From NCBI RefSeq assembly GCF_008728855.1, contig NZ_CP042906.1, forward strand, positions 3,771,570 to 3,835,569: a stretch of DNA of 64,000 nt, in the 5' to 3' direction. Shown piece after piece: positions 6,112 to 27,994 of the stretch (positions are counted from its first letter, which is position 1; every line of letters starts with the position of its first letter). Both the position numbers and the translations under genes were made by a program. Below the pieces are notes generated by a model. It was not told where the DNA came from, searched no databases, and worked only from the letters and a program-made list of their open reading frames with translations. Origin of the DNA: Hypericibacter terrae. Its GTDB lineage: Bacteria; Pseudomonadota; Alphaproteobacteria; Dongiales; Dongiaceae.

Positions 6112-6115
<4 letters not shown>
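5402..6115 (-). CDS. livF: LIV-type ABC transporter ATPase LivF (cassette 1)
   Basis: Second ATPase of a branched-chain-amino-acid-type uptake transporter, 237 residues. Walker A is GRNGAGKTT near residue 37, the signature is LSGGEQEML, Walker B is VLLLDEPTEGLMP and the switch histidine is replaced by Gln in ILVEQRVEAAL, which is usual for LivF. Last gene of the minus-strand cassette livK-livH-livM-livG-livF, and its start overlaps the livG stop. Substrate cannot be read from the sequence; the family also takes up amides and urea. Confidence 0.92.
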
Positions 6116-6839
<724 letters not shown>

Positions 6840-6861
<22 letters not shown>

Positions 6862-8713: not shown

Positions 8714-8743
8714 GGCGCGCGGCTTCCCGCGATGAAGCCGCAC

Positions 8744-8778
8744 GCCCTCTCTTCACCCTTACCGGAGGAAGAGAGGGC
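8744..8778 (-). other. Intercistronic hairpin between livK and livH
   Basis: GCCCTCTCTTC at 8744-8754 is perfectly complementary to 8768-8778: an 11-bp stem with a 13-base loop and no T-tract. It sits between the binding-protein gene and the permease genes of the same operon. Such structures often stabilise the upstream message or partly attenuate, giving more binding protein than membrane components. That role is inference. Confidence 0.6.
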
Positions 8779-8810
8779 GCCGCCGTTGGAAATCACGACC
8801 TCGGATGCCG

Positions 8811-10133: not shown

Positions 10134-10260
10134 CGTCGCGCCTCCCCAGCGTTGAGCGGTGGCCTGCACGCTTCTCCCGCGCGGGCACCGGTTCTTGTTA
10201 TGGCGAACGTTTGCATAGAAATGAAATCATGCGACCCGGGAAAAGGCAATATCCGGCCCT

Positions 10261-11763
10261 CTATCCAATCGTAGGAGCCGCCAGCAGCCAGAGCCCGAAC
10301 AGCGTGTAGCCGATCATCAGCAGCGCCAGAGGCCACTGGCTCGCCAGGGCGGCGCGCTTGTCGGGAAAGCGCTCGATCGCGATCAGATGGGCCAGCAGCA
10401 CCGCCAGGATATGGACCAGCATCACGGCCCCTGCCTGCGCCGAGAAGATGAGCCAGACCGAATTCATGTCCGACAGGAAAGAAACCCTGACATGGGGATC
10501 AGCGATTCCCAGCAGGTGCCAGCCCCAGCCGAACGGATCGTCGATCGAGAACACCGCATATTGGGCATTCACCAGGAACGACGTCAGGTAATGGGCGAAG
10601 TGGTAGCCGATCGAGATCGGCAGGATCGACAGGACGAAGGCGCCGAGCAGGGTGCCGATGTCAATCCGGCCGCCGGCCAGGCGCCCACCCAGCCCCATCG
10701 CCAGACCATAGGCCGCGCCGAGCAGCAGCCACGCCCCGATCAGTCCCAGGCTATTCGGCAACATGAGCACGGTCCGGCCTGGAAATTCGAGCGGGTTGAC
10801 GCCCCAGACTCCAAGCCACCAGAAGGTCTTGTCGAGCCCGTCGAAGGAAACGGTCGCCAGGGTCAACAGCACGAACAGGGCGCCGCTCAGGGGCAGCGGC
10901 CCAAATTGCAGGAGCGCCCGCCCCGGCAGTCCCAGCGTCAGGCGGTATCGCCGGCTGGGACCGGTCGAGGTATCCGGCTCGACCGGTTCCGCGCGCAAGG
11001 GCGCGAGCAGCGCCACGAAGCGGAAGAAGACCGCGAAGCCATCGCCCTTGGCGAGCCAGGCCCGCTCGCCGAACAGGACCATGCCGGCCAGGGTAATGGC
11101 CGAGTAAATCACGATCGCCTCGGCCAGCCGCGCGGGATCGTCGGGCGCCGGGTCGATCAGCTCGAACCAGGCGAAGCCCAAAAACAACAGGATCGCCGGC
11201 CCGTAACCGAACCAGGGCGGATAGCCCAGAAGTGCCGGCGACGAGCCCGTGTCGCCCGAAAGCCGCCGGATCAGGCGATAGGGCGCCAGCCAGGGATTGA
11301 GAAAGCTCCAGAGATTGCCGAACAGCGCCTGGGCGACCGTGAGCCCGCCCCACCAGACCGTCCAGATGAAGAGCGGCAAGGGGTTCGACAGCGGATCGCG
11401 GCTGCCATAGACGCCGGCGATCAGGAGCAAGACCAGGAGCAGGAAGCTGGCCGCGCTGATCGCGGTCCGGGGCAGCGCCGGCCAGACGCCGAGATCGAAC
11501 CGTGCCGCCGCGATGCGGCGCAGGAAGCTGTCGGAAACCGCAAGCAACAACAGGAAGGAGGCGGCCACGGCAAGCGTGCCCCCAACGATGTAGTAATGCG
11601 TCGGCAGCAGCAGGACGAAGCCCTTGTCGGAGGCATGAGCCCAGGCGGGAGTGGCCGCGACGACCGACAAGAGGCTTCCGAACCACAGACGCAAAGGCCA
11701 AATGGCGGATCTCAATGCGACCCTGCGTCGGGTGTCACGGATGGGGGCTTCTTCTTGATGCAA
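10261..11763 (-). CDS. Conserved multi-pass membrane protein
   Basis: A 500-residue integral membrane protein with about ten hydrophobic segments and a possible N-terminal signal (LSVVAATPAWAHASDKGF). The stretch HASDKGFVLLLPTHYYIVGG and the blocks WTVWWGGLTVAQALFGNLWS and FVLSILPISIGYHFAHYLTS, with paired histidines inside membrane segments, look conserved. I recall related proteins being labelled fenitrothion hydrolase in databases, but nothing here demonstrates that activity. Overlaps the upstream small membrane-protein gene by 52 bases, so its true start may be slightly downstream. Confidence 0.7.
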   Translation of the reverse strand: MHQEEAPIRDTRRRVALRSAIWPLRLWFGSLLSVVAATPAWAHASDKGFVLLLPTHYYIVGGTLAVAASFLLLLAVSDSFLRRIAAARFDLGVWPALPRTAISAASFLLLVLLLIAGVYGSRDPLSNPLPLFIWTVWWGGLTVAQALFGNLWSFLNPWLAPYRLIRRLSGDTGSSPALLGYPPWFGYGPAILLFLGFAWFELIDPAPDDPARLAEAIVIYSAITLAGMVLFGERAWLAKGDGFAVFFRFVALLAPLRAEPVEPDTSTGPSRRYRLTLGLPGRALLQFGPLPLSGALFVLLTLATVSFDGLDKTFWWLGVWGVNPLEFPGRTVLMLPNSLGLIGAWLLLGAAYGLAMGLGGRLAGGRIDIGTLLGAFVLSILPISIGYHFAHYLTSFLVNAQYAVFSIDDPFGWGWHLLGIADPHVRVSFLSDMNSVWLIFSAQAGAVMLVHILAVLLAHLIAIERFPDKRAALASQWPLALLMIGYTLFGLWLLAAPTIG

Positions 11764-12182: not shown

Positions 12183-13013
12183 ATGTTCCTGAGACCGACA
12201 AGCCTGCGCGAGGCGGTCGATGCCTTGGCGACGCCCGGGATCCAGATCCTGGCGGGCGGCACCGACTTCTATCCGGCGCTGGGCGACCGCCATCTCTCCG
12301 CGCCGGTGCTCGACATCACGGCGGTGCGCGAGCTGAGCGGCATCCGTGAGGAACCGTCGCAGTTCCGCATCGCGGGCGGCACGACCTGGAGCGAGCTGGT
12401 CGCCACCCCCCTGCCCCGTTGCTTCGACGCGCTGAAAGCCGCCGCGCGCGAGGTCGGCTCGATCCAGATCCAGAACCGGGGCACCGTCGCCGGCAATCTC
12501 TGCAACGCTTCGCCCGCCGCCGATGGGGTCCCGCCGCTCCTGGCTTTGGATGCCGAGGTCGAGCTCATGTCACGCGCCGGCACGCGCCGCCTCAAGCTCG
12601 GCGACTTCATCACCGGCAATCGCAAGACCGAGCGCCGGCCCGACGAGCTGGTCTCTGCCATCCTGGTGCCCCGCACGATCGAGGGGCCTTCGGTGTTTCT
12701 CAAGCTCGGCGCGCGGCGCTATCTGGTGATCTCGATCGCCATGGTGGCCGCGATCCTCGAAGCGGACGACAAGGGCCGGGTGGCGCAGGCGCGGATCGCG
12801 GTGGGTTCCTGCTCCGCGGTCGCGCGCCGCCTGCCCGACCTGGAGGGCGCGCTCCAGGGTGTCGCCATGACCGCCGGCATCGGAAACCGGGTCGAGCCCT
12901 CGCATCTGGCGGCCCTGGCGCCGATAGACGATATCCGTGCCACCGCCGCCTATCGCCGCGACGCGGCGCGCACGCTGGTGGCGCGCGCGCTCGAGCAATG
13001 CGTGGCGGGCTGA
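12183..13013 (+). CDS. FAD-binding subunit of molybdenum hydroxylase (CoxM type)
   Basis: A 276-residue FAD subunit of the xanthine dehydrogenase/CO dehydrogenase family, carrying electrons from the Fe-S clusters to an acceptor. Seen: FLRPTSLREAVDAL, the FAD loop ILAGGTDFYPALG, VGSIQIQNRGTVAGNLCNAS and PAADGVPPLLALDAEVEL. The ATG at 12183 begins at the conserved MFLRPTSL; an in-frame GTG at 12141 is an alternative. First gene of the plus-strand cluster that runs to 19847, followed by the Mo/Fe-S subunit after five bases. Confidence 0.92.
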   Translation: MFLRPTSLREAVDALATPGIQILAGGTDFYPALGDRHLSAPVLDITAVRELSGIREEPSQFRIAGGTTWSELVATPLPRCFDALKAAAREVGSIQIQNRGTVAGNLCNASPAADGVPPLLALDAEVELMSRAGTRRLKLGDFITGNRKTERRPDELVSAILVPRTIEGPSVFLKLGARRYLVISIAMVAAILEADDKGRVAQARIAVGSCSAVARRLPDLEGALQGVAMTAGIGNRVEPSHLAALAPIDDIRATAAYRRDAARTLVARALEQCVAG

Positions 13014-13018
13014 CCGCC

Positions 13019-15793
13019 ATGGATCGTCCCGCCACCAGCATCGATTTCACCCTCAATGGCCGCGCTGTCAGCGTCGCGACGCCGCCCGGCCAGCGCCTGA
13101 CGCGAGCCTTGCGCGACGAGCTGGGTCTGACCGGCACCAAGGTCGGCTGCGATGCCGGCGATTGCGGCGCCTGCACCGTGCTGCTCGAGGGCGAGCCGGT
13201 CTGTGCCTGCCTGGTCGCGGTTGGCCAGGTCGAGGGCCAGCGGGTCGAGACCATCGAAGGCCTCACCGCCAGCTCGGCCGTGACGCAAAAGCTGCAGGAC
13301 TCGTTCCTTCGTCATGGCGCCGCGCAGTGCGGCATCTGCACGCCGGGCATGCTGGTCGCGGCGACACGGCTCCTGGAGCGGAATCCGCAGCCGACCGAGG
13401 CCGAGGCCATGGATGCGGTCGGCGGCGTGCTCTGCCGCTGCACCGGCTACCGCAAGATCGTCTCGGCCATCCTCGACCAGGGCGAGCCGGGAGTCGCCGA
13501 TTCCGATCCCGCCGCCGGCAGCGCCGTCGGCAAGCGGCTACGTCGTGTCGACGGCAAGCCCAAGACCGATGGCACTGAGATCTTCGGCGCCGACGAGACG
13601 CCGGCCCATTCGCTGCTCCTGCGCGCCGTCCGCAGCCCGCATCATCACGCGCGATTCACCTTTGGCGATCTCGACCGCTATGTCGCGAGCCATCCGGGTA
13701 TCGTGAGAGTGGTGACCGCCAAGGATGTGCCGGGCGTCGATTGCTACGGACCGATCCCCCCCTTCGCCGACCAGTCCGTGTTCGCCCGCGACGAGGTGCG
13801 CTTCCGCGGCGAGGCGGTGGCGGCGGTCGTCGGCCAACCCGCCGCGATCGCGGCGCTCGATCTCGCGAAATTTCCGGTCGTCTGGGAGCCCCTGCCCGCC
13901 CTCACCAGCATGGCGGCGGCGCTCGACGGGACCGCGCCGCTGGTCCATGACAAACGCCCCGGCAACATCCTGACGCGCGGCCGCGTCGTGAAAGGCGATG
14001 TCGAGGCGGCGCTGGCCTCCGCGCCCGTCACCGTCGAAGGCGAGTTCGAGACCGGCTTCGTCGAGCATGCCTATATCGAGCCCGAGGCGGGCTTCGCGCG
14101 GCGCGTCGGCGACCGGATCGAGGTCCAGGTCTGCACCCAGGCGCCCTACATGAATCTCGAGGACATCGCCAAGATCCTGGGGATCCCGCAGAGCGCGGTG
14201 CGCATCATCCCGACCGCGGTCGGCGGCGGCTTCGGCGCCAAGCTCGACATGTCGGTCCAGCCCTTCCTCGCGGTCGCGGCCTGGGTCACCGGCCAGCCGG
14301 TGCAGATGGTTTATACGCGGCCGGAATCCCTCATGACCTCGACCAAGCGCCATCCGTCGAAGATCCGCGCGAAGATCGGCGCCGCGCGCGACGGCGCGCT
14401 GCTGGCGATCGATGTCGCGGCCGATTTCAACACCGGCGCCTATTCCTCCTGGGGGCCGACCGTCGCCAACCGCGTGCCGGTCCATGCCTCGGGGCCCTAT
14501 TACGTGCCGAATTACCGGGCGCTGACGCGCGCGGTGCATACCCATCTGGTCCCCGCCGGCGCCTTTCGCGGCTTCGGCGTGCCGCAAGCGACCCTGGCGC
14601 AGGAGCAGCTTTTCGACGAGCTCGCCGACAAGCTGGGCCTGGACCGCCTCGAGTTCCGCATCAAGAACGCGCTGCGCGGCGATCAGCCGACGGCGACCGG
14701 CCAGGTGATCGGCGAAGGGGTCGGCATCAAGGCCTGCCTCGAAGCCTTGCGGCCGCGCTGGCACGCCGCCCGTGCGGAGGCGGCCGCCTTCAATCGCAGC
14801 ACCAAAGCGCCGCTGCGCCGCGGCGTCGGCGTCGCCGGCATGTGGTATGGCTGCGGCAACACCTCGATGGCCAATCCCTCGACGATGCGAACCGGCCTCA
14901 AGCCCGATGGCAGGGTGGCGCTGCATCAAGGGGCGGTCGATATCGGCCAGGGTTCGAACACGGTCATCCTGCAGATCTTCGCCGATGCGCTGGGAGCGCC
15001 GATCGATCGCATCGACCGCGTCGCGGCCGATACCGATCTGACGCCCGATTGCGGCAAGACCTCCGCCTCGCGCCAGACCTTCGTCTCCGGCAAGGCGGCG
15101 GAACTCGCGGCCCGGGGCCTGCGCGCGCAGATATTGCGCGCCGCCAATGCCGGCGAGGACGCCAAGATTCATTTCAACGCCGGCCATGTCACGGTCCAGG
15201 ACGGCACTCGCGAACGCCGGATCGATCTGACCGCGCTGCCGGTCGATGCGCGCGGCTATGTGTTCGCCGAGGAAGCGACCTTCAATCCGCCGACCACCGG
15301 GCTCGACGAGAACGGCCAGGGCGTGCCCTACGCAGTCTATGGCTTCGGCGCGCATCTGGCTGAGATCGAGGTCGATATGGATCTCGGCACGGTGAAGCTG
15401 GCCGCGCTCACCGCCGCCCACGATGTCGGCCGGGCGATCAATCCGACCCTGGTCGAGGGCCAGATCGAGGGCGGTGCCGCGCAGGGGCTGGGGCTCGCCC
15501 TGATGGAGGAGTTCCTGCCCGGCCGCGGCGAGAATCTGCATGACTATCTGATCCCCTCCGCCGGCGACATGCCGAAGGTCCATTCGATCCTGATCGAGGA
15601 TGCCTCGCCGGTCGGTCCCTTCGGCGCCAAGGGCATCGGCGAGCAGGCGCTGATTCCGACGGCACCGGCGATCTTCAACGCGATCTTCGACGCCACCGGC
15701 GCCCGTATTCGCCGCGCGCCGGCGACGCCGGACCGGGTGCGCGCGGCGATCCTGGCCACGCGGTTGCGGGTCATGGGAAAGGAGGGCGGCTGA
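13019..15793 (+). CDS. Molybdenum hydroxylase, fused Fe-S and Mo-binding subunit
   Basis: A 924-residue fusion of the small two-[2Fe-2S] subunit and the large molybdopterin subunit of the xanthine dehydrogenase family. Residues 1-160 hold GCDAGDCGACTVLLEGEPVC (plant-type cluster), CGICTPGM and CRCTGYRK (second cluster). The Mo part shows VGGGFGAKLD, AGAFRGFGVPQATLAQEQL, VDIGQGSNTVILQ and, near the end, GAKGIGEQAL with the catalytic Glu. Such enzymes hydroxylate N-heterocycles or aldehydes with water as oxygen source. The neighbours (6-hydroxynicotinate-reductase-like protein, enamidase) favour a pyridine carboxylate substrate. No XdhC-type maturation factor is in the window. Confidence 0.92.
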   Translation: MDRPATSIDFTLNGRAVSVATPPGQRLTRALRDELGLTGTKVGCDAGDCGACTVLLEGEPVCACLVAVGQVEGQRVETIEGLTASSAVTQKLQDSFLRHGAAQCGICTPGMLVAATRLLERNPQPTEAEAMDAVGGVLCRCTGYRKIVSAILDQGEPGVADSDPAAGSAVGKRLRRVDGKPKTDGTEIFGADETPAHSLLLRAVRSPHHHARFTFGDLDRYVASHPGIVRVVTAKDVPGVDCYGPIPPFADQSVFARDEVRFRGEAVAAVVGQPAAIAALDLAKFPVVWEPLPALTSMAAALDGTAPLVHDKRPGNILTRGRVVKGDVEAALASAPVTVEGEFETGFVEHAYIEPEAGFARRVGDRIEVQVCTQAPYMNLEDIAKILGIPQSAVRIIPTAVGGGFGAKLDMSVQPFLAVAAWVTGQPVQMVYTRPESLMTSTKRHPSKIRAKIGAARDGALLAIDVAADFNTGAYSSWGPTVANRVPVHASGPYYVPNYRALTRAVHTHLVPAGAFRGFGVPQATLAQEQLFDELADKLGLDRLEFRIKNALRGDQPTATGQVIGEGVGIKACLEALRPRWHAARAEAAAFNRSTKAPLRRGVGVAGMWYGCGNTSMANPSTMRTGLKPDGRVALHQGAVDIGQGSNTVILQIFADALGAPIDRIDRVAADTDLTPDCGKTSASRQTFVSGKAAELAARGLRAQILRAANAGEDAKIHFNAGHVTVQDGTRERRIDLTALPVDARGYVFAEEATFNPPTTGLDENGQGVPYAVYGFGAHLAEIEVDMDLGTVKLAALTAAHDVGRAINPTLVEGQIEGGAAQGLGLALMEEFLPGRGENLHDYLIPSAGDMPKVHSILIEDASPVGPFGAKGIGEQALIPTAPAIFNAIFDATGARIRRAPATPDRVRAAILATRLRVMGKEGG

Positions 15794-15794
15794 C

Positions 15795-17288
15795 ATGTCT
15801 GCGTCTCCGACGAGCGCCACGGGACCCGCAGGGGCCGACGGCAAGATCCGCTGCGATGCCTGTCCGGTCATGTGCTACATCAAACCGGGTGCTGTCGGCG
15901 CCTGCGACCGCTATGCCAATCATGACGGCCAGATCGTCCGCGTCGATCCGCATCTGCTGCTGAACCGCACGGTCTCGCAGGGCGGCACCGTGGTGCCGTT
16001 CGAACGCGCCGGCTGGGACGGACAACTCGTCAATAGCGGCGGCACCTTCGTCACCGCGATCGGCGCCGGCACCACCTATCCCGACTACAAGCCCGCCCCC
16101 TTCATCGTGTCGTCCGAGATGGACGGCGTCGACATGGTCACGGTCGTGACCGAGGGCATCTTCAGCTATTGCGGCGTGAAGATCAAAATCGACACCGACC
16201 GGCATCTGGGGCCCGAACGGAATATCGTGCGCGCCAAGGGCGAGGCCGTCGGTCATGTGACGACGGGCGAATATGGCTCGCAGATGCTGTCGCTGGGTGG
16301 CGTGCATCACCTGACGGGCGGCAGCAAGAAGGAAGGCCGCGTCACCTGCGAGACGCTGCTCGATCTCTGCAACGGCAAGGCGGTCGAGCTCACGGTCGAT
16401 GAGGGCGCCTCGGTGCGGGTCCAGGCCGGCAAGCCGCCGGTCGTCAACGGCACGGCCGAGGAACGGATGCGGGTCGGCTGCGGCTCCGCCACCATCGGCA
16501 TGTTCGCACGCCAATGGTTCGGCAAGGTCGACGAGGTAGTGGTGGTCGACGACCACATCACCGGCGTGCTCTCCGAGCATCAGGCCGGCAAATATCTCGG
16601 CATCGGCGAGACCGGCATCCGCATGAAGGGCCGGCGCTCGACGCCCGGCCGCTATTTCCAGGTGGCCGAGCCCGGCACCGGCTGGGGCGGCACCAACATC
16701 TCCGATCCGCTCTCGATCCTCGAGCCCTTCGACAGGAAGGTGGCGAAGCCCGGCACCTCGATGCTGATGGTCAGCACCACCGGCGAGCAATATGGCTTCT
16801 ATCGGCTGAACGAAGCGCTGCAGCCGGTCGAGGAAGAGCTGCCCGAGGCCTTGCGCGTCTCGGTCGAGCGAATCCGCGAGAATTGCGAGCCCGCGCTCTG
16901 CACGGTGCTCTTCATGGGCGGTGCGGGCGGATCGCTGCGCGCCGGCGTCACCGAGAATCCGGTGCGGCTGACACGCTCGGTAGAGGACTCCCTCACCCGC
17001 GTCACCTGCGGCGGCGCCCCGGTCTATATCTGGCCCGGCGGCGGCATCACCTTCATGGTCGATGTCAGCCGCGTGCCCGAGAACGGCTTCGGCTATGTGC
17101 CGACGCCGGCCCTGGTGGCGCCGATCGAATTCACCATGACGCTCGAGGATTACGCGGCGCTCGGCGGGCATCTCGACCAGGTGCGGCCGCTGGCCTCGCT
17201 CGACCGCGGCAGCGACCGGCGCGAAGTGACGCCGCACGCAGAGAATCCCTGGCCCATGGCGCCGGTGCGCGGCGGGAGCGGCCGGTAA
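15795..17288 (+). CDS. 6-hydroxynicotinate reductase-like Fe-S flavoprotein
   Basis: A 497-residue protein resembling the family named for 6-hydroxynicotinate reductase (Hnr) of Eubacterium barkeri, which reduces the pyridone ring to 1,4,5,6-tetrahydro-6-oxonicotinate. The N-terminus has a Cys cluster C20-x2-C23-x3-C27-x9-C37 (DACPVMCYIKPGAVGACDRY) for an Fe-S centre. Gly-rich blocks follow (EPGTGWGGTNISDP, LFMGGAGGSLRAGVT, YIWPGGGITFMVD). Hnr is described as an Fe-S protein with covalently bound flavin; two possible flavinylation sites are D113-MVTVV-T119 and S81-GG-T84. It follows the Mo subunit by one base and precedes the UPF0280 gene by one base. The exact substrate here is inferred. Confidence 0.78.
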   Translation: MSASPTSATGPAGADGKIRCDACPVMCYIKPGAVGACDRYANHDGQIVRVDPHLLLNRTVSQGGTVVPFERAGWDGQLVNSGGTFVTAIGAGTTYPDYKPAPFIVSSEMDGVDMVTVVTEGIFSYCGVKIKIDTDRHLGPERNIVRAKGEAVGHVTTGEYGSQMLSLGGVHHLTGGSKKEGRVTCETLLDLCNGKAVELTVDEGASVRVQAGKPPVVNGTAEERMRVGCGSATIGMFARQWFGKVDEVVVVDDHITGVLSEHQAGKYLGIGETGIRMKGRRSTPGRYFQVAEPGTGWGGTNISDPLSILEPFDRKVAKPGTSMLMVSTTGEQYGFYRLNEALQPVEEELPEALRVSVERIRENCEPALCTVLFMGGAGGSLRAGVTENPVRLTRSVEDSLTRVTCGGAPVYIWPGGGITFMVDVSRVPENGFGYVPTPALVAPIEFTMTLEDYAALGGHLDQVRPLASLDRGSDRREVTPHAENPWPMAPVRGGSGR

Positions 17289-17289
17289 C

Positions 17290-18192
17290 ATGGCTCGCGC
17301 GCACATCGCCCTCCTGCCCGACGGCCGCCGGCTGCATCTGCAGGACGGGCCGATCGACCTGATCGTCGAAGCCTGGGCCGGTCGCGCGGACGTCGAAGCC
17401 GCCTATCGAGCCGCGGCCGAGCGCTTCGTCACGATCCTCGACGAGCTCTGCGCCGAGCTGCCCTTACTGCGCACCGCCGCCCATCCGGTTCGGAACGAAC
17501 TCACCGGCATCGTGGCGCAGCGCATGCAGAAGGCCGTCGCGAGCTTCTCAAAGCAGATCTTCATCACGCCGATGGCGGCCGTCGCCGGCGCCGTGGCGGA
17601 GGAAATCCTGGGCGCGATGACGGCAGCGGCTCCCCTCGCCCGAGCCTATGTCAATAACGGCGGGGATATCGCCCTGCATCTGGCGCCCGGCGAGAGCTTC
17701 AAGATCGCGATGATCGACCGGCCCGACCGGCCCTCGCTCTTCGGCACCGCGACGATCGGCCATGAAGCCCCAGTACGCGGCATCGCCACCAGCGGCTGGC
17801 GCGGCCGCAGCTTCTCGCTCGGGATCGCCGATGCGGTGACGGTGCTGGCGCCGGGCGCGGCGATGGCCGATGCCGCCGCGACCGTGATTGCCAATGCGGT
17901 CGATCTGCCGGGTCATCGCGGCATTCTCCGCCTGCCGGCCACCGACCTTCAGCCCGACAGCGATCTGGGCCCGCGCCTGGTCACGCGTCATGTCCCGGAA
18001 CTGACGCAGGGCCAGATCGCCGCGGCGCTCGACGCCGGCCAGGCGACCGCTCTATCGTTACAGGCGCGAAGCCTCATCGTGGCAGCCGCCCTGCATCTCC
18101 AGGGCCAGACCCGGTTCATCGGCATCGCATCCGACGCTATCGTACCGCAGCTCTTCAACCCGGCCCCCATGAAGGCGATCGCTCATGCATGA
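17290..18192 (+). CDS. UPF0280 protein, ApbE-like fold (candidate flavin transferase)
   Basis: A 300-residue UPF0280 family member. It carries marks of the ApbE (FAD:protein FMN transferase) fold: AYVNNGGDIALHL near residues 118-130 matches the ApbE xNxGGD segment, GIATSGW near 163-169 matches its ATSG loop, and MADAAATVIANAV near 191-203 matches its metal-binding ADAxAT segment. No signal peptide or lipobox is visible, unlike exported ApbE. It sits directly after the Hnr-like gene, so a role in attaching flavin to that enzyme is an attractive inference. The family has no firmly established function that I know of. Confidence 0.85.
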   Translation: MARAHIALLPDGRRLHLQDGPIDLIVEAWAGRADVEAAYRAAAERFVTILDELCAELPLLRTAAHPVRNELTGIVAQRMQKAVASFSKQIFITPMAAVAGAVAEEILGAMTAAAPLARAYVNNGGDIALHLAPGESFKIAMIDRPDRPSLFGTATIGHEAPVRGIATSGWRGRSFSLGIADAVTVLAPGAAMADAAATVIANAVDLPGHRGILRLPATDLQPDSDLGPRLVTRHVPELTQGQIAAALDAGQATALSLQARSLIVAAALHLQGQTRFIGIASDAIVPQLFNPAPMKAIAHA

Positions 18193-18769
18193 CGTGATCC
18201 TGCGCAAATATCTGATCTCGGTCGAAGAGATCTATCACGAAGGCGGCCCCGCCCCGGCCAAATCCCTGAAGCGCGGCGCCGCTCTCGCCGTCATTCACAA
18301 TCCCTTTGCCGGCCGTTATGTCGAGGACATCGCCGGCTTCATGGACGATCTCAAACCGCTCGGCACGCGGATGGCGAAGGATCTGATCGCGGCCATGGGC
18401 GGCAATGCCAAGGCGATCGAAGGCTATGGCAAGGGCGCCATCGTCGGCGCGGGTGGCGAGCTCGAGCATGGCGCGCTCTGGCACGTGCCGGGCGGCTATG
18501 GCATGCGCGAGATGCTGGGCGGCGCCAAGGCCATCGTGGCCTCGACCAAGAAGGTCGGGGGTCCCGGCACGCGGCTCGACGTGCCGGTCACCCATATCAA
18601 CGCCTCCTATGTGCGCAGCCATTTCGACGCCATCGAGGTCGGCATCGCGGACGCGCCGCGCGCGGACGAGATCCTGCTGGCGCTGGTGATGACCACGGGA
18701 CCGCGTATCCATGCCCGCGTCGGCGGGCTCAAGGCGAGCGAAGTCAAGGGAGAGGACGGCCTCAGATGA
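18185..18769 (+). CDS. DUF1185 (amino acid synthesis family) protein, copy 1
   Basis: A 194-residue protein of the family called amino acid synthesis (DUF1185/PF06684), whose function is not known. Seen: the start MHDVILRKYLISVEEIYHEG, the conserved AVIHNPFAGRYVEDIAG and the end HARVGGLKASEVKGEDGLR. It overlaps the UPF0280 gene by eight bases and the next paralogue by four. A role in the N-heterocycle pathway, perhaps as an isomerase, hydrolase or maturation factor, is guesswork from position. Confidence 0.85.
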   Translation: MHDVILRKYLISVEEIYHEGGPAPAKSLKRGAALAVIHNPFAGRYVEDIAGFMDDLKPLGTRMAKDLIAAMGGNAKAIEGYGKGAIVGAGGELEHGALWHVPGGYGMREMLGGAKAIVASTKKVGGPGTRLDVPVTHINASYVRSHFDAIEVGIADAPRADEILLALVMTTGPRIHARVGGLKASEVKGEDGLR

Positions 18770-19350
18770 AAGCCAGGATCCGCAAGATCGTCACGGTGGT
18801 GGAGGAGACCAGCCAGGAGCTGGGCCATGACGTGAAGCCGCCGGTGCGCCGCGCCGCCGCGGTCGCGATCATCGAGAACCCCTTTGCCGGACGCTATGTC
18901 GAGGATCTCGCGGAGCTGATCGATATCGGCGAGGAACTGGGCGGGCTGCTATCGGAACGCGCGGTCGCGGCGCTGGGTATTCCTGGCGCCAAGGTCGAGA
19001 GCTATGGCAAGGCCGCGGCCGTGGGCGAGAATGGCGAGCTCGAGCATGCGGCGGCGATCCTGCATCCCAAGCTGGGCGCGCCCTTCCGCAAGACGCTGGG
19101 CAAGGGTGCCGCCCTCATCCCCTCCTCCAAGAAGCGCGGCGGGCTCGGCGTGGCGCTCGACATTCCGCTGGGCCACAAGGACGCCGCCTTCGTGCGCAGC
19201 CATTTCGACGGCATGGAGGTCCGGGTCCATGACGCGCCGCGCGCCAACGAGATCATGGTCGCCGTGGCGGTGACCGACAGCGGGCGGCCCTTGCCGCGCG
19301 TGGGCGGCCTGACCAAAGCCGAGATCAAGGGCGAGGACGGCCTGCGGTGA
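18766..19350 (+). CDS. DUF1185 (amino acid synthesis family) protein, copy 2
   Basis: Paralogue of the preceding gene with the same length (194 residues) and the same blocks: AIIENPFAGRYVEDLAELID, LGHKDAAFVRSHFDGMEV and PRVGGLTKAEIKGEDGLR. The two are clearly homologous but diverged throughout, so they may form a heteromer or act on successive intermediates. The start overlaps copy 1 (ATGA) and the end overlaps the MarR gene, indicating a single transcript. Confidence 0.85.
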   Translation: MKARIRKIVTVVEETSQELGHDVKPPVRRAAAVAIIENPFAGRYVEDLAELIDIGEELGGLLSERAVAALGIPGAKVESYGKAAAVGENGELEHAAAILHPKLGAPFRKTLGKGAALIPSSKKRGGLGVALDIPLGHKDAAFVRSHFDGMEVRVHDAPRANEIMVAVAVTDSGRPLPRVGGLTKAEIKGEDGLR

Positions 19351-19847
19351 GGCCGCGGGCCGCCGCAACCCTTGCCCTGGTCGCAGAAGGCGTGAGCGCG
19401 CCCCGGCTGCGCAAGAGCGTCCGGGCCACGCCGGTTGCGCATTACCGGCTCGACGACCAGGTGGGATTCATGCTGCGTCGTGTCAGCCAGCGCCATGTCG
19501 CGATCTTCGCGCGCCATATGGACAAGGACATCACGCCCACGCGCTGGGCGACGCTCGCCAAGCTCTATGAGGAAGGCCCGACCACCCAGAACCGCCTCGG
19601 TCGGCTGACCGCCATGGATGCGGCCACCATCAAGGGCGTGGTCGACCGCCTTATCAAGCGCCATCTGATCGAGACCCGCGCCGATCCCGAGGACGGGCGA
19701 CGGCGTGTCGTGGCCCTGACCGAGGCGGGACAGACCCTGGTCGAGCGCTCGCTGGCGCATGCCAGTGCGATCAGCCGCAAGACCCTCGAACCCTTGAGCT
19801 CCCGCGAGCAGGCCGTGCTGCTGGAGCTGCTGCGCAAGCTGGCGTGA
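19347..19847 (+). CDS. MarR-family transcriptional regulator
   Basis: A 166-residue winged-helix regulator. The core runs from LDDQVGFMLRRVSQRHVAIF through TPTRWATLAKLYEEGPTTQN and the recognition helix region LTAMDAATIKGVVDRLIKRH to the wing RADPEDGRRRVVALTEAG, all typical of MarR. The GTG start overlaps the DUF1185 stop. About 25 residues precede the usual domain start, so a later start is possible. As the last gene of the cluster it probably controls it in response to the pathway substrate or an intermediate. Confidence 0.9.
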   Translation: MRPRAAATLALVAEGVSAPRLRKSVRATPVAHYRLDDQVGFMLRRVSQRHVAIFARHMDKDITPTRWATLAKLYEEGPTTQNRLGRLTAMDAATIKGVVDRLIKRHLIETRADPEDGRRRVVALTEAGQTLVERSLAHASAISRKTLEPLSSREQAVLLELLRKLA

Positions 19848-19936
19848 CGACTCCCCGTTCCTTGTGCTTGAGTGCGCCCGGCTGAGGCGCTGCCCCGCGC
19901 CCGATCAGCGACCCTGAGGAGCCCTCGCGACCCCGC

Positions 19937-21592
19937 ATGACCCAGACTGCATCCCAGGACGGCCCGGCCGGCTCTCCCGACCGCTACGACTACATCATCG
20001 TCGGCGCCGGCTCGGCCGGCTGCGTGCTGGCCAACCGCCTGACCGAGAACGGGCGCCACAAGGTGCTGCTGCTCGAGGCCGGCCCCTCCGACCGCCGCTT
20101 CTGGGTCCAGGTGCCGATCGGCTATGGCAAGACTTTCTACAATCCCGTCCTCAACTGGATGTATCAGTCCGAACCCATCCCCGGCCTGAACAACCGCACC
20201 AACTATGTGCCGCGCGGCAAGATCCTGGGCGGATCCAGCTCGATCAACGCCATGGTCTATTCGCGGGGCCAGGCGGGCGACTACGAAGACTGGGAGGCGA
20301 TGGGCAACAGCGGCTGGGGCTGGAAAGAGGTGCTCCAGACCTATCGCAAGATGGAGGACCATGCGCTGGGTGCCGGTCCCTTCCACGGCGCCGGCGGACC
20401 GCTCCATGTCGACGACATCAGAAACGCCGTCCATCCGCTGAGTCACCTCTATGTGAAGGCGGGCCAGGAGGCCGGGCTGAAATACACGCCCGATCTCAAT
20501 GGCGAGACGATCGAGGGTGTCGGTCTCTACCAGATCACCACCAAGAACGGGCTGCGCTGGTCCTCCTCACGCGCCTATCTCTGGCCGGCGCAGGGCCGCG
20601 CCAATCTCCGCGTCGAGACCGGCGCGCTCGCGACCCGGATCCTGTTCGAGGGCAAGCGCGCGACCGGGATCGCCTATCGCCAGAACGGCCGGGAGATGAG
20701 GGCCTTCGCAGCCCGCGAGGTCATCCTCTCCGGCGGCTCGATCAACACGCCCCAGCTGCTGCAGCTTTCAGGCGTCGGACCGGCCGAGCTCCTGAAGCGG
20801 GTCGGCGTCGCCGTCCATCACGAGAGCCCGGCGGTCGGCCGCTATATGCAGGACCATGTCTGCTACGACTATATCTACCGGGCCTCGCAGCCGAGCCTGA
20901 ACAACGTTCTCTATCCCTGGTGGGGCAAGCTGCGGGTCGGGCTGCAATATATCCTGACGCGCAAGGGGCCGCTCTCGCTCAGCGTCAATCAGGGCGGCGG
21001 TTACTTCCGCTCCCGGCCCGATCTGGACCGGCCCAACATCCAGCTCTATTTCTCGCCGCTCACCTATGAGAAGGCGCTGCCCGGCGTGAAGAAGCTGATG
21101 GGCCCCGACCCCTTCCCCGGCTTCATCATCAGCGTCTCGCCCACCCGGCCGACCAGCCGCGGGCATCTCGAGATCAAATCGAGCGATCCGAACCAGGCGC
21201 CGGCGATCCAGCTCAACCTGATGTCGACCAATCACGACATGCAGGAACTGGTCGAGGGCATCCGTTTCATGGCGAAACTGGCGAAGGCCCCCTCGCTCGC
21301 CTCGGTCATTGCGGAACGGCTGCATCCGGGCCCGGGCGGCACCACCGACGACGAAATCGCCGCCGACATCCGCGCCCGCGCCTATTCGGTCTTCCATCCC
21401 TGCGGCAGCGCGCGCATGGGGCCGGACCCGAAGGAGTCCGTGGTCGATCCGCGGCTGCGCGTGCATGGCCTGTCGGGCTTGCGGATCGTCGATTCCTCGA
21501 TCTTCCCCACCGTGACGTCCGGCAACATCAACGCGCCGACGATCATGATCGGCGAACGCGGCTCGGAATTCGTGCTGGCGGATGCGAAATAG
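19937..21592 (+). CDS. GMC-family FAD oxidoreductase (choline dehydrogenase-like)
   Basis: A 551-residue flavoprotein oxidising an alcohol group. The FAD motif YDYIIVGAGSAGCVLANRL is at residues 15-33; the GMC signatures PRGKILGGSSSINAMVYSRG and SGGSINTPQLLQLSGVGPAE follow, and the C-terminus holds the catalytic His region (SVFHPCGSARMG and TSGNINAPTIMIGER). It lies 89 bp after the MarR gene on the same strand, so it may have its own promoter. Alcohols generated in the neighbouring pathway are possible substrates, but choline-like or other alcohols cannot be excluded. Confidence 0.92.
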   Translation: MTQTASQDGPAGSPDRYDYIIVGAGSAGCVLANRLTENGRHKVLLLEAGPSDRRFWVQVPIGYGKTFYNPVLNWMYQSEPIPGLNNRTNYVPRGKILGGSSSINAMVYSRGQAGDYEDWEAMGNSGWGWKEVLQTYRKMEDHALGAGPFHGAGGPLHVDDIRNAVHPLSHLYVKAGQEAGLKYTPDLNGETIEGVGLYQITTKNGLRWSSSRAYLWPAQGRANLRVETGALATRILFEGKRATGIAYRQNGREMRAFAAREVILSGGSINTPQLLQLSGVGPAELLKRVGVAVHHESPAVGRYMQDHVCYDYIYRASQPSLNNVLYPWWGKLRVGLQYILTRKGPLSLSVNQGGGYFRSRPDLDRPNIQLYFSPLTYEKALPGVKKLMGPDPFPGFIISVSPTRPTSRGHLEIKSSDPNQAPAIQLNLMSTNHDMQELVEGIRFMAKLAKAPSLASVIAERLHPGPGGTTDDEIAADIRARAYSVFHPCGSARMGPDPKESVVDPRLRVHGLSGLRIVDSSIFPTVTSGNINAPTIMIGERGSEFVLADAK

Positions 21593-21601
21593 CTTCTTCT
21601 T

Positions 21602-21776
21602 CCCTCCCCTTCACGGAGCGAGGGGAGGGTTGCGAAGAGTTAGTCGGAGCGAAGCGGAGACTTACTCGGAGCTGGGAGAGGGTGTGTGCGCAAGAAAGGC
21701 CCACCTCTCCCAGCTTCGGCTAAGGCTCGACTTCGTCTCGCCTAAGCCTGCGCAACCCTCTTCCCCCGCTACGCGG
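21602..21776. repeat. Composite palindromic intergenic element
   Basis: Several nested hairpins fill the gap between two convergent genes. CCCTCCCCT (21602-21610) pairs with 21621-21629; a 12-bp stem pairs 21670-21681 with 21704-21715; GGGTTGCG (21627-21634) is complementary to 21751-21758; and CCCGC-TAC-GCGGG spans 21764-21776. It probably ends transcription from both sides and may belong to a dispersed repeat family. A second copy is not in this window, so the repeat status is inferred from the structure. Confidence 0.6.
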
Positions 21777-21795
21777 GCGGAGAGGAGAGAAGACA

Positions 21796-22776
21796 CTACC
21801 CGTTCAAATAACCCTTCAACGCCCGCCCGATCCGCTCCATCGGCGCGACCTTCGGATCGGGCCAGGCGAATGTCTGCCCTGTGATCCGCTCGAACGCCTC
21901 GATATAGACCGCCGCCGTCTTCAACCGCATCTCGCGGGGGATCTCGGGGATCGGGTCCTTGTAGGGATTGCAGCGCGCGGTCACCCAGCTCCTCACGAAA
22001 TCCTTGTCGAAGCTTTCGGGCCGCTGGCCGGCCGCGACGCGCGCCTCGTAGCTGTCGGCGAACCAGTAGCGGCTGCTGTCGGGCGTGTGGATCTCGTCGG
22101 CGAGGATGATCCGGCCGCCCTCGTCGAGACCGAACTCGTATTTGGTATCGACCAGGATCAGCCCGCGCCTGGCGGCCATTTCGCGGCCGCGCGCGAACAG
22201 CGCCAGCGCGTATCGGGAGAGCTGGTCCCATTGCGGGCGGGTCAGGACCTTGCGCTCGACGATCTCGGCCGCCGAGAGCGGCTCGTCATGGCCGGCATCG
22301 AAGGCCTTGGTCGTCGGCGTGATGATGGTCTGCGGCAGCTTCTGGTTCTCGCGCATGCCGTCCGGGAACCTGATCCCGTACATCTCGCGCTTTCCCGCCT
22401 TGTACATCGGCCAGATCGAGGTGCCGGTGGTGCCGGCCAGATAATCGCGCACCACGATCTCGACCGGCATGATGGTCAGGCGCCGACAGGCCACGACATT
22501 GGGATCGGGATAGGCCAGCACATGGTTGGGACAGATGTCGCCGGTCGCCTCGAACCAGAAGCGCGCGGTCTGGGTCAGCACCTGGCCCTTTAGAGGAATC
22601 GAGGTCAGGATCCGGTCGAAGGCGCTCAGGCGATCGGTCGCGACGATGATGCGCCGCCCATCGGGCAGGTCGTAATTGTCGCGCACCTTGCCCTTGTAAT
22701 GGTTGGGCAGCTCGGGGAAGGAAACTTCGGCGAGAACCCGATCGAGATAGGGTTCCACGGACTTCGGATCGATCAT
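21796..22776 (-). CDS. purC: SAICAR synthase (phosphoribosylaminoimidazole-succinocarboxamide synthase)
   Basis: ATP-dependent ligation of CAIR with aspartate in purine synthesis. The 326-residue protein is the longer form of the family. Landmarks: [77 protein letters not shown] and [14 protein letters not shown]. It is convergent with the GMC gene and separated from it by the palindromic element. A housekeeping gene inserted between the catabolic genes and the enamidase homologue. Confidence 0.95.
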
Positions 22777-22822
22777 GAATAAGGCTTCGTCTCTGGCGTG
22801 AATGAGGGAATTGCGGCCGCGC

Positions 22823-24022
22823 TCAATGCGCGGCGAGCTCGGGGATGCGGGTCGCGGGCGGCGTGTTGCGGCTGCGCTGGGTGCGGACGATCCCGTCGAT
22901 GACGGTCATGCCCACGCCCGGCAGGTCACCCAGCCGGATGCTGTCGAGCATGGTCTTGCCCGGCGAATGCTGCGCCTTGTCGAGGAAGACGAAGTCGGCC
23001 GCCCGCCCCTTCTCGATCAGGCCGCAATCGAGCGAGCGCATCCGCGCGGTGTTGCCGGTGGCGAAGCAGATCGCGATCTCGGCCGGAATGTCGCCCAGCG
23101 AGGACAGCATCGAGATCATGCGCAGGATGCCGAGCGGCTGCACGCCCGATCCCGCCGGCGCATCGGTGCCGAGGATGACGCGCTCGAGCTGACCCATCTC
23201 CTTGGCGGTGCGCAGCGTGAAGAGCGCCGAGCGCTCATTGCCGTTATGGACCAGTTCGAGCCCGCGCTGGCAGCCCTCGCAGATGCAGCGGATCTGATCG
23301 TCCGGCAGGGCCGTATGTCCGCCATTGATATGGCCGACCACGTCGGTGTCGGCCTCCAGCACCACATCCTTGTCGATCAGGCCCGAGCCCGGGATCGAGG
23401 GGCCGCCGGTATGGATCGTGCTCTGGATTCCGTATTTGCGGGCCCAGGCGACCATCTTCCGGGCGGTCGGCCCGTCCTTGACGCCGCCCAGCCCCACCTC
23501 GCCCAGATACTTCACGCCGGCGGCGCCGAGTTCCTTGAAATCCTCCTCGCTCATGCCGGTCTCGATCACCGGCGCGCCGCCATGGACCTTGACCCCGCTG
23601 GAGCGGAAATTGGCGAAGGCGCGCTGGGCGAAGATCGCCATCGCCTTGACCCCGACGATGTCCTTGGGTCGGCCCGGCATATGGACCTCGCCGGCCGAGA
23701 TCATGGTGGTCACGCCGCCATGGAGATAGCTGTCGATCCAGTTGATCTGACTCTGGCGCGGCGTCCAGTCGCCGGCCACCGGATGGACGTGGCTGTCGAT
23801 CAGGCCCGGCGCCACGGCCGTCTCCTTGGCGTCGATCACCGTGCCCGCGCCCGACAGGTCCAGGTCTCTGGCCCGGCCGACGGCGGAGATGCGGCCGTCG
23901 ACCGCGACGATCGCGTCGGCGTCGAGGATGGGTTTCTGCAGGTCGCCGCTCAGCAGCAGACCGATATTGCGGATGACGAGCTTGCCGGGCCCGCCGGCCG
24001 GCTTGGCTTCCTCGGCTGCCAT
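22823..24022 (-). CDS. Enamidase-like amidohydrolase
   Basis: A 399-residue metal-dependent amidohydrolase. The N-terminus [20 protein letters not shown], the metal site [58 protein letters not shown] and [12 protein letters not shown] closely follow enamidase (Ena) of Eubacterium barkeri as I recall its sequence; Ena opens the tetrahydro-6-oxonicotinate ring to 2-formylglutarate. The C-terminal [16 protein letters not shown] also fits. The ATG at 24022 has GGGAG upstream. The same pathway supplies the Hnr-like gene 6 kb away, which supports the assignment. Other cyclic amide substrates are possible. Confidence 0.82.
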
Positions 24023-24856: not shown

Positions 24857-26914
24857 TCAGACCCTCAATTCAACCAGATAGTTCCGGTGCGCATCGGTCA
24901 CGGCCGTCTGGCCCTTGAGCAGCAGGATGGTCGTGGTGGGCTCCTCGATCAGCGCCGGACCGTCGATGCGCGCGCCGCTGCCCAGTTTGTCGCCCTGATA
25001 GACCGGCAGCTCGACGAAGCCCTGCTTGGCGCCGAGATAGACCTTCCGGCGTGACTTCGGCGCCGGCAGGCCTACCTGCCTCGGCAGATCGACGCCCCGG
25101 CGGTCAGCCCCGCCGGTGTCGCCCACCGCCCGCACCTTCCAGGTGGTGAACTCGACCACGTCGTTCTCATCCTTGATGGTGTAGATGCGCTCATGCATCT
25201 GGTGGAAGGCCGCCGCCAGCCGCGGGAAGTCGCCCGCGCCGAGCCGGTCGCCCGGCAGCGTGAAGGGCACCTCGATATCCCAGGACTGGTAGAGATAGCG
25301 GCCCTGATAGGCATATTCGAAGCGCTGCCTGTTGCGCGGGAAGCCGGCCCGGTCGAGGAAATCGCGGCCGCGCTGGCGCAGGCGGTCGATCAGGGCGTTG
25401 GTGCGCTCGACATCGAAATCCGTATGCGTTTCATGCAGCGTCGCCGCCTCTTCCCAGCGCACGTCGGAGATGAGGCCGCCATAGGCGCTCAAACCGGCCG
25501 CGAAGCTCGGGATCATGAAGCGCTTGATGCCCAGGATCTGCGCCATCTCGCCGATATGGCAGGCGGTGGCCCCGCCGCCCGACACCAGATAGCTGTCGCG
25601 CGGGTCGATGCCCTCATTGACGGTGATGTCCTCGACCGCGCCGATCATGTTGTGGTTCGAGGTGGTGTAGATCGCGTAGGCCGCCTCGACCGTGCCGAGA
25701 CCGACCTTCCTGGCGAAGCGCTCGACCGCCTCGACCGCCCTGCCCCGATCGAGCTTCATCTGCCCGCCGAGGAAATAGTCCGGATCGATGATGCCGAGCA
25801 CGACATTGGCGTCGGTGACCGTGGCCTCGGTCCCGCCCTTGCCATAGCAGGCCGGACCGGGCTTGGCGGCGGCACTCTGCGGGCCGACCTTGATCAGGCC
25901 GCCGGCATCGACCCAGGCGATGCTGCCGCCGCCGGCCCCTACCGAGCGCACGTCGATCTTGGGGATTCCCAGCATGTCCATGCCAAAGGTCGCCTCCGGC
26001 GTGACCACGAGCTGGCGGTCGCGCAGCGCCGAGACGTCGAAGGTGGTGCCGCCCATATCGACCACGATCACGTTGGGATCGGTGGTGAGATGCATCGCGG
26101 CGATCGGCGCCAAAGTGGGGCCCGACATGACGCTGTAGATCGGCCGGGCGATGATTTCGTCCGGCGGCATCATGCCGCCGACGCAATTGGCGATGAGGAG
26201 CTCGTTCTTGTAGCCGGCCGCGCGCAGCGCCTGGTCGAGCTGGCTCACATAGGCGCCGACGATCGGATAGAGCGAGGCGTTGATCGCGGTCGCAATGGTG
26301 CGGCGGTATTCGCGCGGCACCGGATTGAGCTCATGGCTCAGGGTCACGGGGATGCCGGGCAGCTCGTTCTGCAGGATCTCGCGCACGCGCAGCTCATGCT
26401 TCGGATTGACGATCGACCAGAGCAGACTGACGGCAACCGCCGCGACGTTGCAGGTCTCGAGATGCTTCGCCGCCGCCACGACGTCGGCCTCGACCAGGGG
26501 ATCGATCTCGTTGCCCATGGAGTCGATCCGGCCCCGCACCTCGCAGGTGAATTTGCGCGGGATATAGGGCTCCGGATAATCGATCTTGGTCAGGAAGGCG
26601 CGTTTGCGCGGCGCCTCGCGCAGCGTGAGGATGTCGGGATGGCCCGCATTGCAGATCAGACCCGCGGTCGCGACCTTGCCTTCGACCAGCGCATTGGTCG
26701 AAACGGTGGTGCCATGCACCAGAAGCTCGAGCTTCGCCAGGAAGTCGGTCAGGGACAGCCCGCGCGATTTGGCGGCCAGGGTCAGCACATCCATGAAGCC
26801 GCGCTCGAACTCGCCGGGCGTGGTCGGGGATTTCATGATCTCGAGCCCTTTGCCGCGCTCATAGAGGATGAGGTCGGTGAAGGTTCCGCCGATATCGATG
26901 CAGCCTACGAACAT
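24857..26914 (-). CDS. hyuA: Hydantoinase/oxoprolinase family protein, A subunit
   Basis: A 685-residue ASKHA-fold ATPase subunit of the N-methylhydantoinase/5-oxoprolinase family, hydrolysing a cyclic amide or activating a substrate at ATP cost. Seen: VGCIDIGGTFTDLILYERGK at the start, LELLVHGTTVSTNALVEG, VIVVDMGGTTFDVSALRD and GAGGGSIAWVDAGGLIKVGP. Last gene of the seven-gene operon whose first gene is the B subunit, with a LIV transporter between them. The substrate is unknown; a hydantoin or lactam taken up by this transporter is the natural guess. Confidence 0.9.
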   Translation of the reverse strand: MFVGCIDIGGTFTDLILYERGKGLEIMKSPTTPGEFERGFMDVLTLAAKSRGLSLTDFLAKLELLVHGTTVSTNALVEGKVATAGLICNAGHPDILTLREAPRKRAFLTKIDYPEPYIPRKFTCEVRGRIDSMGNEIDPLVEADVVAAAKHLETCNVAAVAVSLLWSIVNPKHELRVREILQNELPGIPVTLSHELNPVPREYRRTIATAINASLYPIVGAYVSQLDQALRAAGYKNELLIANCVGGMMPPDEIIARPIYSVMSGPTLAPIAAMHLTTDPNVIVVDMGGTTFDVSALRDRQLVVTPEATFGMDMLGIPKIDVRSVGAGGGSIAWVDAGGLIKVGPQSAAAKPGPACYGKGGTEATVTDANVVLGIIDPDYFLGGQMKLDRGRAVEAVERFARKVGLGTVEAAYAIYTTSNHNMIGAVEDITVNEGIDPRDSYLVSGGGATACHIGEMAQILGIKRFMIPSFAAGLSAYGGLISDVRWEEAATLHETHTDFDVERTNALIDRLRQRGRDFLDRAGFPRNRQRFEYAYQGRYLYQSWDIEVPFTLPGDRLGAGDFPRLAAAFHQMHERIYTIKDENDVVEFTTWKVRAVGDTGGADRRGVDLPRQVGLPAPKSRRKVYLGAKQGFVELPVYQGDKLGSGARIDGPALIEEPTTTILLLKGQTAVTDAHRNYLVELRV

Positions 26915-26923
26915 GTCGGTTCT

Positions 26924-27991: not shown

Positions 27992-27994
27992 GGC

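Follow-up and report, generated by a model that had tools for sequence, protein, structure and literature searches.

A putative reductive nicotinate cluster in Hypericibacter terrae and its ties to the UPF0280 and DUF1185 families

A candidate reductive nicotinate cluster

We analyzed a window of 64,000 nucleotides from the alphaproteobacterium Hypericibacter terrae (contig NZ_CP042906.1, positions 3,771,570 to 3,835,569; coordinates below are those of the window), which carries a putative gene cluster for the uptake and degradation of nicotinate by a reductive route. In this cluster, a molybdenum (Mo) hydroxylase, a 6-hydroxynicotinate reductase (Hnr)-like protein, and an enamidase are encoded together with members of two protein families, UPF0280 and DUF1185, whose tie to the pathway was found to be tight and to cross phyla. 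In the proposed sequence, the Mo-hydroxylase would hydroxylate C6 of nicotinate to give 6-hydroxynicotinate, Hnr would reduce the ring to 1,4,5,6-tetrahydro-6-oxonicotinate (THON), and the enamidase would open the lactam, whereupon the enamine product would shed ammonia and yield 2-formylglutarate. The chemistry of hydroxylation, ring reduction, and opening by enamidase is established for Eubacterium barkeri. From homology and synteny, we put the probability that these genes encode the three steps on nicotinate at about 0.8.

The genes from MoF to MarR form an operon-like run on the forward strand (12183-19847), with intergenic gaps of -8 to +5 bases. The run opens with the Mo-hydroxylase, consisting of a flavin adenine dinucleotide (FAD) subunit (MoF; 12183-13013; PF00941 and PF03450) and a single chain in which the 2Fe-2S and molybdopterin parts are fused (MoSL; 13019-15793; Fer2, Fer2_2, Ald_Xan_dh_C, MoCoBD_1, and MoCoBD_2), presumed to be the nicotinate 6-hydroxylase. 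It continues with the Hnr-like protein (15795-17288; assigned by annotated relatives, synteny, tree, and motif count), which lacks the N-terminal ferredoxin domain, and the UPF0280 protein, a distant member of the ApbE superfamily (17290-18192; NF003322, 405.9 bits at a cut-off of 290). Two DUF1185 paralogues, D1 (18185-18769; PF06684, 7.7e-71) and D2 (18766-19350; PF06684, 2.5e-74; phmmer 4.2e-87 to 2QTP/SPO0826), the latter of the type present in the clusters of anaerobes, and a MarR-type regulator (19347-19847; PF01047) complete the run. A GMC oxidoreductase gene (19937-21592, forward strand; family models) follows, and purC (21796-22776) lies between it and the enamidase gene (22823-24022), both on the reverse strand. 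Family models and open reading frame lists bore out the gene list of a first-pass annotation of this DNA, except that the GMC oxidoreductase could not be kept as a part of the cluster. Of 123 related loci, none held a match to it or to purC (E 1e-10, at least half length), and in four loci from elsewhere (L036, L037, L039, and L136) the enamidase gene lies within ∼1 kb of MarR. We therefore count the enamidase as part of the module and dropped the GMC oxidoreductase as a pathway enzyme.

The first-pass annotation had also proposed a co-occurrence analysis, which, run on 289 alphaproteobacterial genomes (the sample for all genome counts below), confirmed UPF0280 and DUF1185 as conserved members. 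Hnr was present in 44 genomes, UPF0280 in 45, and DUF1185 in 57 (56 pass the cut-off). UPF0280 occurred in all 44 Hnr genomes versus 1 of the 245 others (G099, E 8.7e-9; Fisher 2e-51) and DUF1185 in 39 of 44 versus 18 of 245 (Fisher 7e-29), both values being uncorrected for relatedness. Loci were compared from 40 of the 43 Hnr genomes besides the window's own. The order MoF, MoSL, Hnr, UPF0280 was kept in 34 of these 40, which argues against a chance association, and UPF0280 was the next downstream gene, on the same strand as Hnr, in 38 (L055 ends inside UPF0280; L074 has its Hnr in two separate frames).

A scan beyond the alphaproteobacteria, made with the enamidase alignment, covered the best 80 of at least 549 relatives' loci, which by their titles derive from Bacillota, Desulfobacterota-type bacteria, an archaeon, Chloroflexi, and Proteobacteria. 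By BLAST, Hnr was present in 63 of these best 80, UPF0280 in 56 of the 63, and Hnr, UPF0280, and DUF1185 together in 54. UPF0280 was thus missing from seven Hnr loci by BLAST. L115 gained it with better queries, L117 and L119 end inside Hnr, and 217, 700, and 5 bases remain past Hnr in L083, L103, and L121, respectively. No UPF0280 was seen in L147, a 6.4-kb contig of a metagenome-assembled genome with room after Hnr, and in L105 the UPF0280 gene lies 3.7 kb from Hnr. Two families for which we found no assigned function are now linked to a three-step pathway whose chemistry is defined, and their partners in it are clear.

A shortened Hnr and its UPF0280 partner

Neither Pfam nor NCBIfam gave a match to Hnr itself at E 0.001, and the sequence matches of the protein in the PDB were at chance level only. 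The name rests on relatives in 26 plasmid records (all at 60-80%, some annotated as hnr or 6-hydroxynicotinate reductase) and on the position of putative Hnr genes beside enamidase in other phyla. The window Hnr was 41-47% identical to each of 24 of 24 Hnr proteins from loci not of the alpha/beta type, and C20, C23, C27, C37, C229, and C364 were invariant in the 38 rows of the same alignment (A5), consistent by sequence and core cysteines with EC 1.3.7.1. Three loci had been dropped from the alignments: L090 (a gapped assembly; 34% in alignment A2), L113 (a masked stretch), and L003. The Hnr tree, built from 53 proteins, placed the window protein in a starred nine-row clade (100/99) with those of Afipia, Azorhizobium doebereinerae, and Aquabacter.

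Two CxxCxxCxxxC motifs stand ahead of the core CxxC cluster in 38 of 41 Hnr frames of L078-L124, with none in L120 and two frames unreadable. Of the 60 alpha/beta-type frames (L035-L074 and L126-L157, with L154 titled Sulfotelmatobacter), 57 had no such motif and the other three were unreadable; the aerobic form of Hnr thus lacks the ferredoxin domain. By these features, the window protein is an Hnr-like, shortened variant without the two-cluster ferredoxin domain of the anaerobes' enzyme. Of 123 loci, 7 (L075-L077, L140, L145, L148, and L156) carried the plasmid type of ferredoxin-NADP reductase gene; since this leaves only 4 of 120 besides the three plasmids, we refrain from naming its product the general electron donor of Hnr. 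The threonine of the Hnr block GCGSAT was considered as a flavin site and rejected, Ala or Ser occupying the position in several rows. A structural model of Hnr (predicted local distance difference test [pLDDT] score, 82.9) gave no Foldseek match at E 0.001 and a best Z of 3.9. Given the length of the model and its use as a single query, these results do not establish a new fold.

UPF0280 is likely a dedicated flavin-related partner of Hnr. Its tie to Hnr and its distant relation to ApbE suggest a part in maturing the flavin of Hnr, and we lean, by a modest degree, toward an ApbE-like partner that would act in the cytoplasm and load or fix this flavin. The blocks NNGGD, ATSG..GRS, and AD..AT were kept in most or all of 26 UPF0280 rows, and PF02424 (ApbE) matched 20 of the 26 proteins (best 1.1e-7). 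Among PDB entries, 2O34 was the only clear relative (6.8e-18), flavin mononucleotide (FMN) transferases following at 0.14 and weaker. Also in favor, a search of the window's complete genome for PF02424 at E 0.001 gave nothing, as did those of G197 and G203.

Several observations speak against flavin transfer. The window UPF0280 had no PF02424 match even at E 10. Of the five genomes searched, two have a canonical ApbE (G028 and G066, one each). The review PMC12052999 gives Ser241, His257, and Asp285 as catalytic in V. cholerae ApbE and D-x-x-[ST]-G-A-[ST] as the target motif. This motif was present in 0 of 101 Hnr proteins. The alignment of UPF0280 with one ApbE was weak (E 0.0013, probability 18%); in it, the ApbE segment NHIFDPSTGG, which we take to hold the catalytic His, stood opposite a gap in UPF0280. 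UPF0280 would thus keep the Ser and Asp blocks of the ApbE triad and seems to be without its catalytic His, a provisional result because of the weak alignment. The kept blocks and the apparently lost His segment, together with the missing target motif, would suit a UPF0280 that is a flavin-holding subunit or an electron-transfer partner of Hnr and not a flavin transferase. We regard this as a serious but less probable alternative, since the covalent flavin that purified E. barkeri Hnr reportedly carries would need either an installing factor or self-formation. Should UPF0280 indeed fix flavin on Hnr, the known kinds of protein flavinylation would gain another, this one cytoplasmic. A literature search found no paper naming UPF0280 and, among the matches listed, none joining 6-hydroxynicotinate with ApbE.

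Substrate, ring opening, and DUF1185

As the first-pass annotation had inferred, a reductive nicotinate route is the best-supported reading of the cluster, in view of the enamidase homologue, the Hnr clade, a nicotinamidase gene nearby, and the gene set of Acetobacterium bakii (for both, see below). MoSL matched 58 PDB sequences, among them chains 3hrd_A, B, and D of the nicotinate dehydrogenase of E. barkeri, the best being the aldehyde oxidoreductase 1sij. Counting against the nicotinate reading, the best PDB relatives of the Mo enzyme are aldehyde oxidoreductases, and its sequence does not fix the substrate. Moreover, family scans of chosen frames (546-37777) yielded no gene assignment for the steps beyond 2-formylglutarate; among the scanned frames, the only loose candidate was an aldehyde dehydrogenase at 36365. 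The same chemistry might act on another N-heterocycle (a pyridine carboxylate, a hydroxypyridine, or a pyrimidine), with nicotinate not the main substrate. In line with this, the substrate cannot be read from the Mo-hydroxylase sequence, and the enzyme is of another type than its counterparts in the loci of A. doebereinerae, Afipia, and Aquabacter, which match it at just 26-34%. We nevertheless consider this improbable, given the nicotinamidase in the neighborhood, an enamidase 47% identical to that of E. barkeri, and the place of the window Hnr within a clade that holds relatives of nicotinate degraders.

The nicotinate route has precedents in such bacteria. According to excerpts of PMC3511419, Azorhizobium caulinodans uses the THON route, Bradyrhizobiaceae strain SG-6C degrades nicotinate in growth tests, the Hnr of SG-6C is 42% identical to that of E. 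barkeri, and the cluster is common to SG-6C and A. caulinodans. An excerpt of PMC9304392, an Aspergillus paper, restates the route for E. barkeri and Azorhizobium. The route, and such a cluster in outline, have been published (PMC3511419), and such bacteria were already known to have the pathway. New are the cross-phylum tie of UPF0280 and DUF1185 to the pathway, the probable exchange of enamidase for HyuAB, and the Hnr form that lacks the ferredoxin domain.

The match of the window enamidase to E. barkeri enamidase (2VUN) had a phmmer E of 4.7e-110 and spanned residues 56-436 of the longer frame, and the identity in the alignment was 47%. H67, H69, E164, H193, H220, and D276, which we take to be the ligands of the binuclear metal site, were kept in 9 of 9 alignment rows. 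Full-length homology and these six presumed metal-site residues are consistent with enamidase (EC 3.5.2.18). Enamidase of the window type (at least 68% identity) occurred in 18 of 44 Hnr genomes and one other (G082), and HyuA of the type neighboring Hnr in Neorhizobium (E ≤ 1e-180) occurred in 25 of 44 Hnr genomes versus 10 of 245 others. The two split 43 of the 44 Hnr genomes 18:25, none having both and only G226 (70% complete) having neither (1.8e-11 for the exclusion, uncorrected for relatedness). As to counting rules, the enamidase query matched 111 genomes at E 0.001, but just 19 of them, those with at least 68% identity, were counted; this excludes a band at 38-43% (G202, G060, G210, G104, G279, G185, and G064) and many weak amidohydrolase matches. 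For HyuA the rule was E 1e-180, and identities had no clear gap, the weakest Hnr genome being at 56% and a genome without Hnr at 55%.

On the Hnr tree, where for six named loci the label reflects only whether enamidase is present, the enamidase label switched 6 times, at least 5 of these switches being forced by starred branches. HyuA was opposite to enamidase in 5 of 5 independent tree pairs, although five pairs cannot reach 0.05. The same Mo-hydroxylase type adjoined Hnr in most loci of both the enamidase and the HyuA kinds. The split without overlap suggests that HyuAB, by family an ATP-dependent oxoprolinase/hydantoinase, probably replaces enamidase as the ring opener in Hnr genomes without enamidase. 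If so, aerobic nicotinate ring opening would have two unrelated solutions, one of which would escape annotation. A literature search pairing hydantoinase with oxonicotinate or enamidase found no report.

For D2, we tentatively suggest a role after ring opening, most simply hydrolysis of the 2-aminomethylene-glutarate enamine or steering of the reactive aldehyde; D1 would be a paralogue with an unassigned share in the pathway. DUF1185 was present in all 18 enamidase-type Hnr genomes, and when the 44 Hnr genomes are ranked by D2 match, exactly these 18 take the top places (69-100%), followed by two HyuA-type genomes at 64%. In A. bakii (L078), the DUF1185 gene lies between the enamidase gene and a gene for a B12-binding protein. 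Across the 48 loci L078-L125, 40 had one readable DUF1185 frame and 8 had none (by BLAST, L111 has a piece at the locus end), and all 40 frames scored higher to D2 than to D1. Enamidase-like genes (39-43%) with an adjacent or nearby DUF1185 gene and no Hnr beside them were found in G202, G060, G210, L128, and L139. The invariant residues of DUF1185, which include E91, E93, H94, H100, R108, R144, H146, E162, R174, and R178 (alignment A6), would suit an enzyme acting on a dicarboxylate.

The distribution of DUF1185 also holds points against this role. Five Hnr genomes, all of the HyuA type, had no DUF1185, and 18 genomes without Hnr did; in 14 of the 16 examined among these 18, no enamidase-like gene was found beside DUF1185 in the fetched stretch. 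Furthermore, D2 stands beside HyuAB in L075 (67%) and L076 (62%). Because of these two loci and the narrow gap between 69% and 64%, we limit the claim to enamidase implying D2 and do not extend it to the reverse.

A D2 model (pLDDT 89.7) matched 3BYQ and 2QTP. Fold likeness beyond the own family, to Rid proteins, chorismate mutase, and barbiturases, stood at the background level: the Rid protein PA0814 (Z 6.7, root mean square deviation [rmsd] 3.4, 117 aligned) and barbiturase 5hy1 (Z 5.9, rmsd 4.0, 105 aligned) both scored level with folds that are unrelated. That DUF1185 itself opens or rearranges the ring, as a relative of cyclic amide hydrolases (barbiturase/AtzD, Toblerone fold), is accordingly doubtful: the barbiturase-family chains 5hy4, 5hy2, 5hy1, and 5hy0 were found at Z 5.6-6.0, but chorismate mutase, Rid proteins, FtsZ, and AIR synthetase reach equal values, and D2 accompanies enamidase, which already opens the ring.

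The structure paper PMC2954203 proposes a role of DUF1185 in amino acid metabolism or synthesis from nearby genes for branched-chain amino acid transport and metabolism. Liv-type neighbors are equally expected of a nicotinate cluster, and the context here points to N-heterocycle breakdown. A literature search found no assigned function for DUF1185, structures of which were released in 2007-2008. The genome has a further DUF1185 copy (L158, G000:C1:5197000-5213000) among genes for a solute-binding protein, two permeases, an alpha/beta hydrolase, an aldehyde dehydrogenase, and an ATP-binding cassette (ABC) ATPase. The hydrolase was considered as an acetamidomethylene-succinate hydrolase and rejected, its best PDB relative being a 3-oxoadipate enol-lactonase (5.8e-32), whereas acetamidomethylene-succinate hydrolase itself (3kxp) gave a far weaker match (4.4e-14). 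A fourth copy (L159, G000:C1:4368700-4385000) has genes for a GMC oxidoreductase, a class V aminotransferase, and a short-chain dehydrogenase/reductase nearby. In G060, a genome without an Hnr match, a row of genes (L172, 7668-11980) encodes DUF1185, an enamidase-like amidohydrolase, a UbiX-type flavoprotein, a 2Fe-2S reductase, and an alpha/beta hydrolase, perhaps a related N-heterocycle route.

Taken jointly, UPF0280 could be a new, His-less cytoplasmic class of flavin-attaching enzyme dedicated to Hnr, a reductase of unseen fold, and DUF1185 the missing enamine hydrolase or aldehyde-steering enzyme in anaerobes and aerobes, the aerobes having repeatedly swapped enamidase for ATP-dependent HyuAB after Hnr lost its ferredoxin domain; this combined picture is unlikely to hold in every part. 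Membership of the window's own hydantoinase operon (24857-33503, reverse strand; hyuA, Liv transporter genes, a binding protein, and hyuB) in the module is very improbable and was rejected, for although only 0.8 kb separates its end from the start of the enamidase and Hnr clusters elsewhere do include a HyuAB pair, its HyuA (24857-26914) is of the wrong type, only 33% identical to the Hnr-linked one (not found in this genome at E ≤ 1e-180), and it has a binding protein and transporter of its own. The operon probably serves a separate lactam or hydantoin route.

Neighborhood and comparison with known systems

A Liv-type (branched-chain-type) ABC transporter (5402-10169, reverse strand; PF00005, PF12399, PF02653, and PF13458) is encoded divergently from the operon. 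It comprises two ATPases (5402-6115 and 6112-6861), permease frames (∼6840-8756), and a binding protein (8811-10169), which is 66-73% identical to copies in Hnr loci L036, L037, L050, and L075. Nicotinate uptake is a possible role. Convergent with this transporter, upstream of the operon, lies a gene for a PncA-like nicotinamidase/pyrazinamidase (4652-5389, forward strand; NF008623, 213.6 bits at a cut-off of 174) that was absent from the first-pass annotation and would feed nicotinamide into the route. Homologues were present in 4 of the 123 related loci, at 80% in L039 and at 33-38% in L100, L104, and L106. The gene is directly preceded by one for an LpxR-type outer membrane protein (3045-4655). 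A 500-amino-acid protein with many hydrophobic stretches (10261-11763, reverse strand), which may or may not belong to the module, had no Pfam match at E 0.001 and no NCBIfam match at E 1e-20; 7 of the 123 loci (L035, L036, L037, L049, L050, L075, and L136) contain homologues.

Two known kinds of cluster come closest to that of the window. The A. bakii locus L078, which we read as a fermentation pathway of the E. barkeri type, encodes, in order, Hnr (cut by the locus start), UPF0280, a chemoreceptor, one further frame, FAD and FeS proteins, two Mo chains, an enamidase 82% identical to that of E. barkeri, DUF1185, a B12-binding protein presumed to be part of a B12 mutase, PrpF, MutL, and a phosphoenolpyruvate mutase/isocitrate lyase-type lyase. 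Like it, the window has Mo-hydroxylase, Hnr, UPF0280, enamidase, and DUF1185 together. However, the Mo enzyme of L078 is split into an FeS and two Mo chains, whereas FeS and Mo parts form one chain in the window; the paired motifs of fermentation-type Hnr are absent from the window Hnr; and the B12-type fermentation genes that follow in L078 were not seen among the scanned frames of the window. With the aerobic cluster of A. caulinodans, Bradyrhizobium, and SG-6C (PMC3511419), compared via the relatives A. doebereinerae (L140), Afipia (L145), and Aquabacter (L148), the window shares the Hnr clade, enamidase, UPF0280, DUF1185, and Liv-type genes. Unlike these three loci, it has another Mo-hydroxylase type (a fused FeS-Mo chain plus an FAD subunit) and no ferredoxin-NADP reductase gene of their type. 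UPF0280 resembles the ApbE flavin transferase (PF02424) by a distant sequence relation with the NNGGD, ATSG, and AD..AT blocks in common and differs from it by the apparent loss of the catalytic-His segment and by a presumed partner, Hnr, that carries no ApbE target motif. The DUF1185 structures 2QTP (70%) and 3BYQ (39% identical to D2 over the aligned part) belong to the same family as D2 (PMC2954203).

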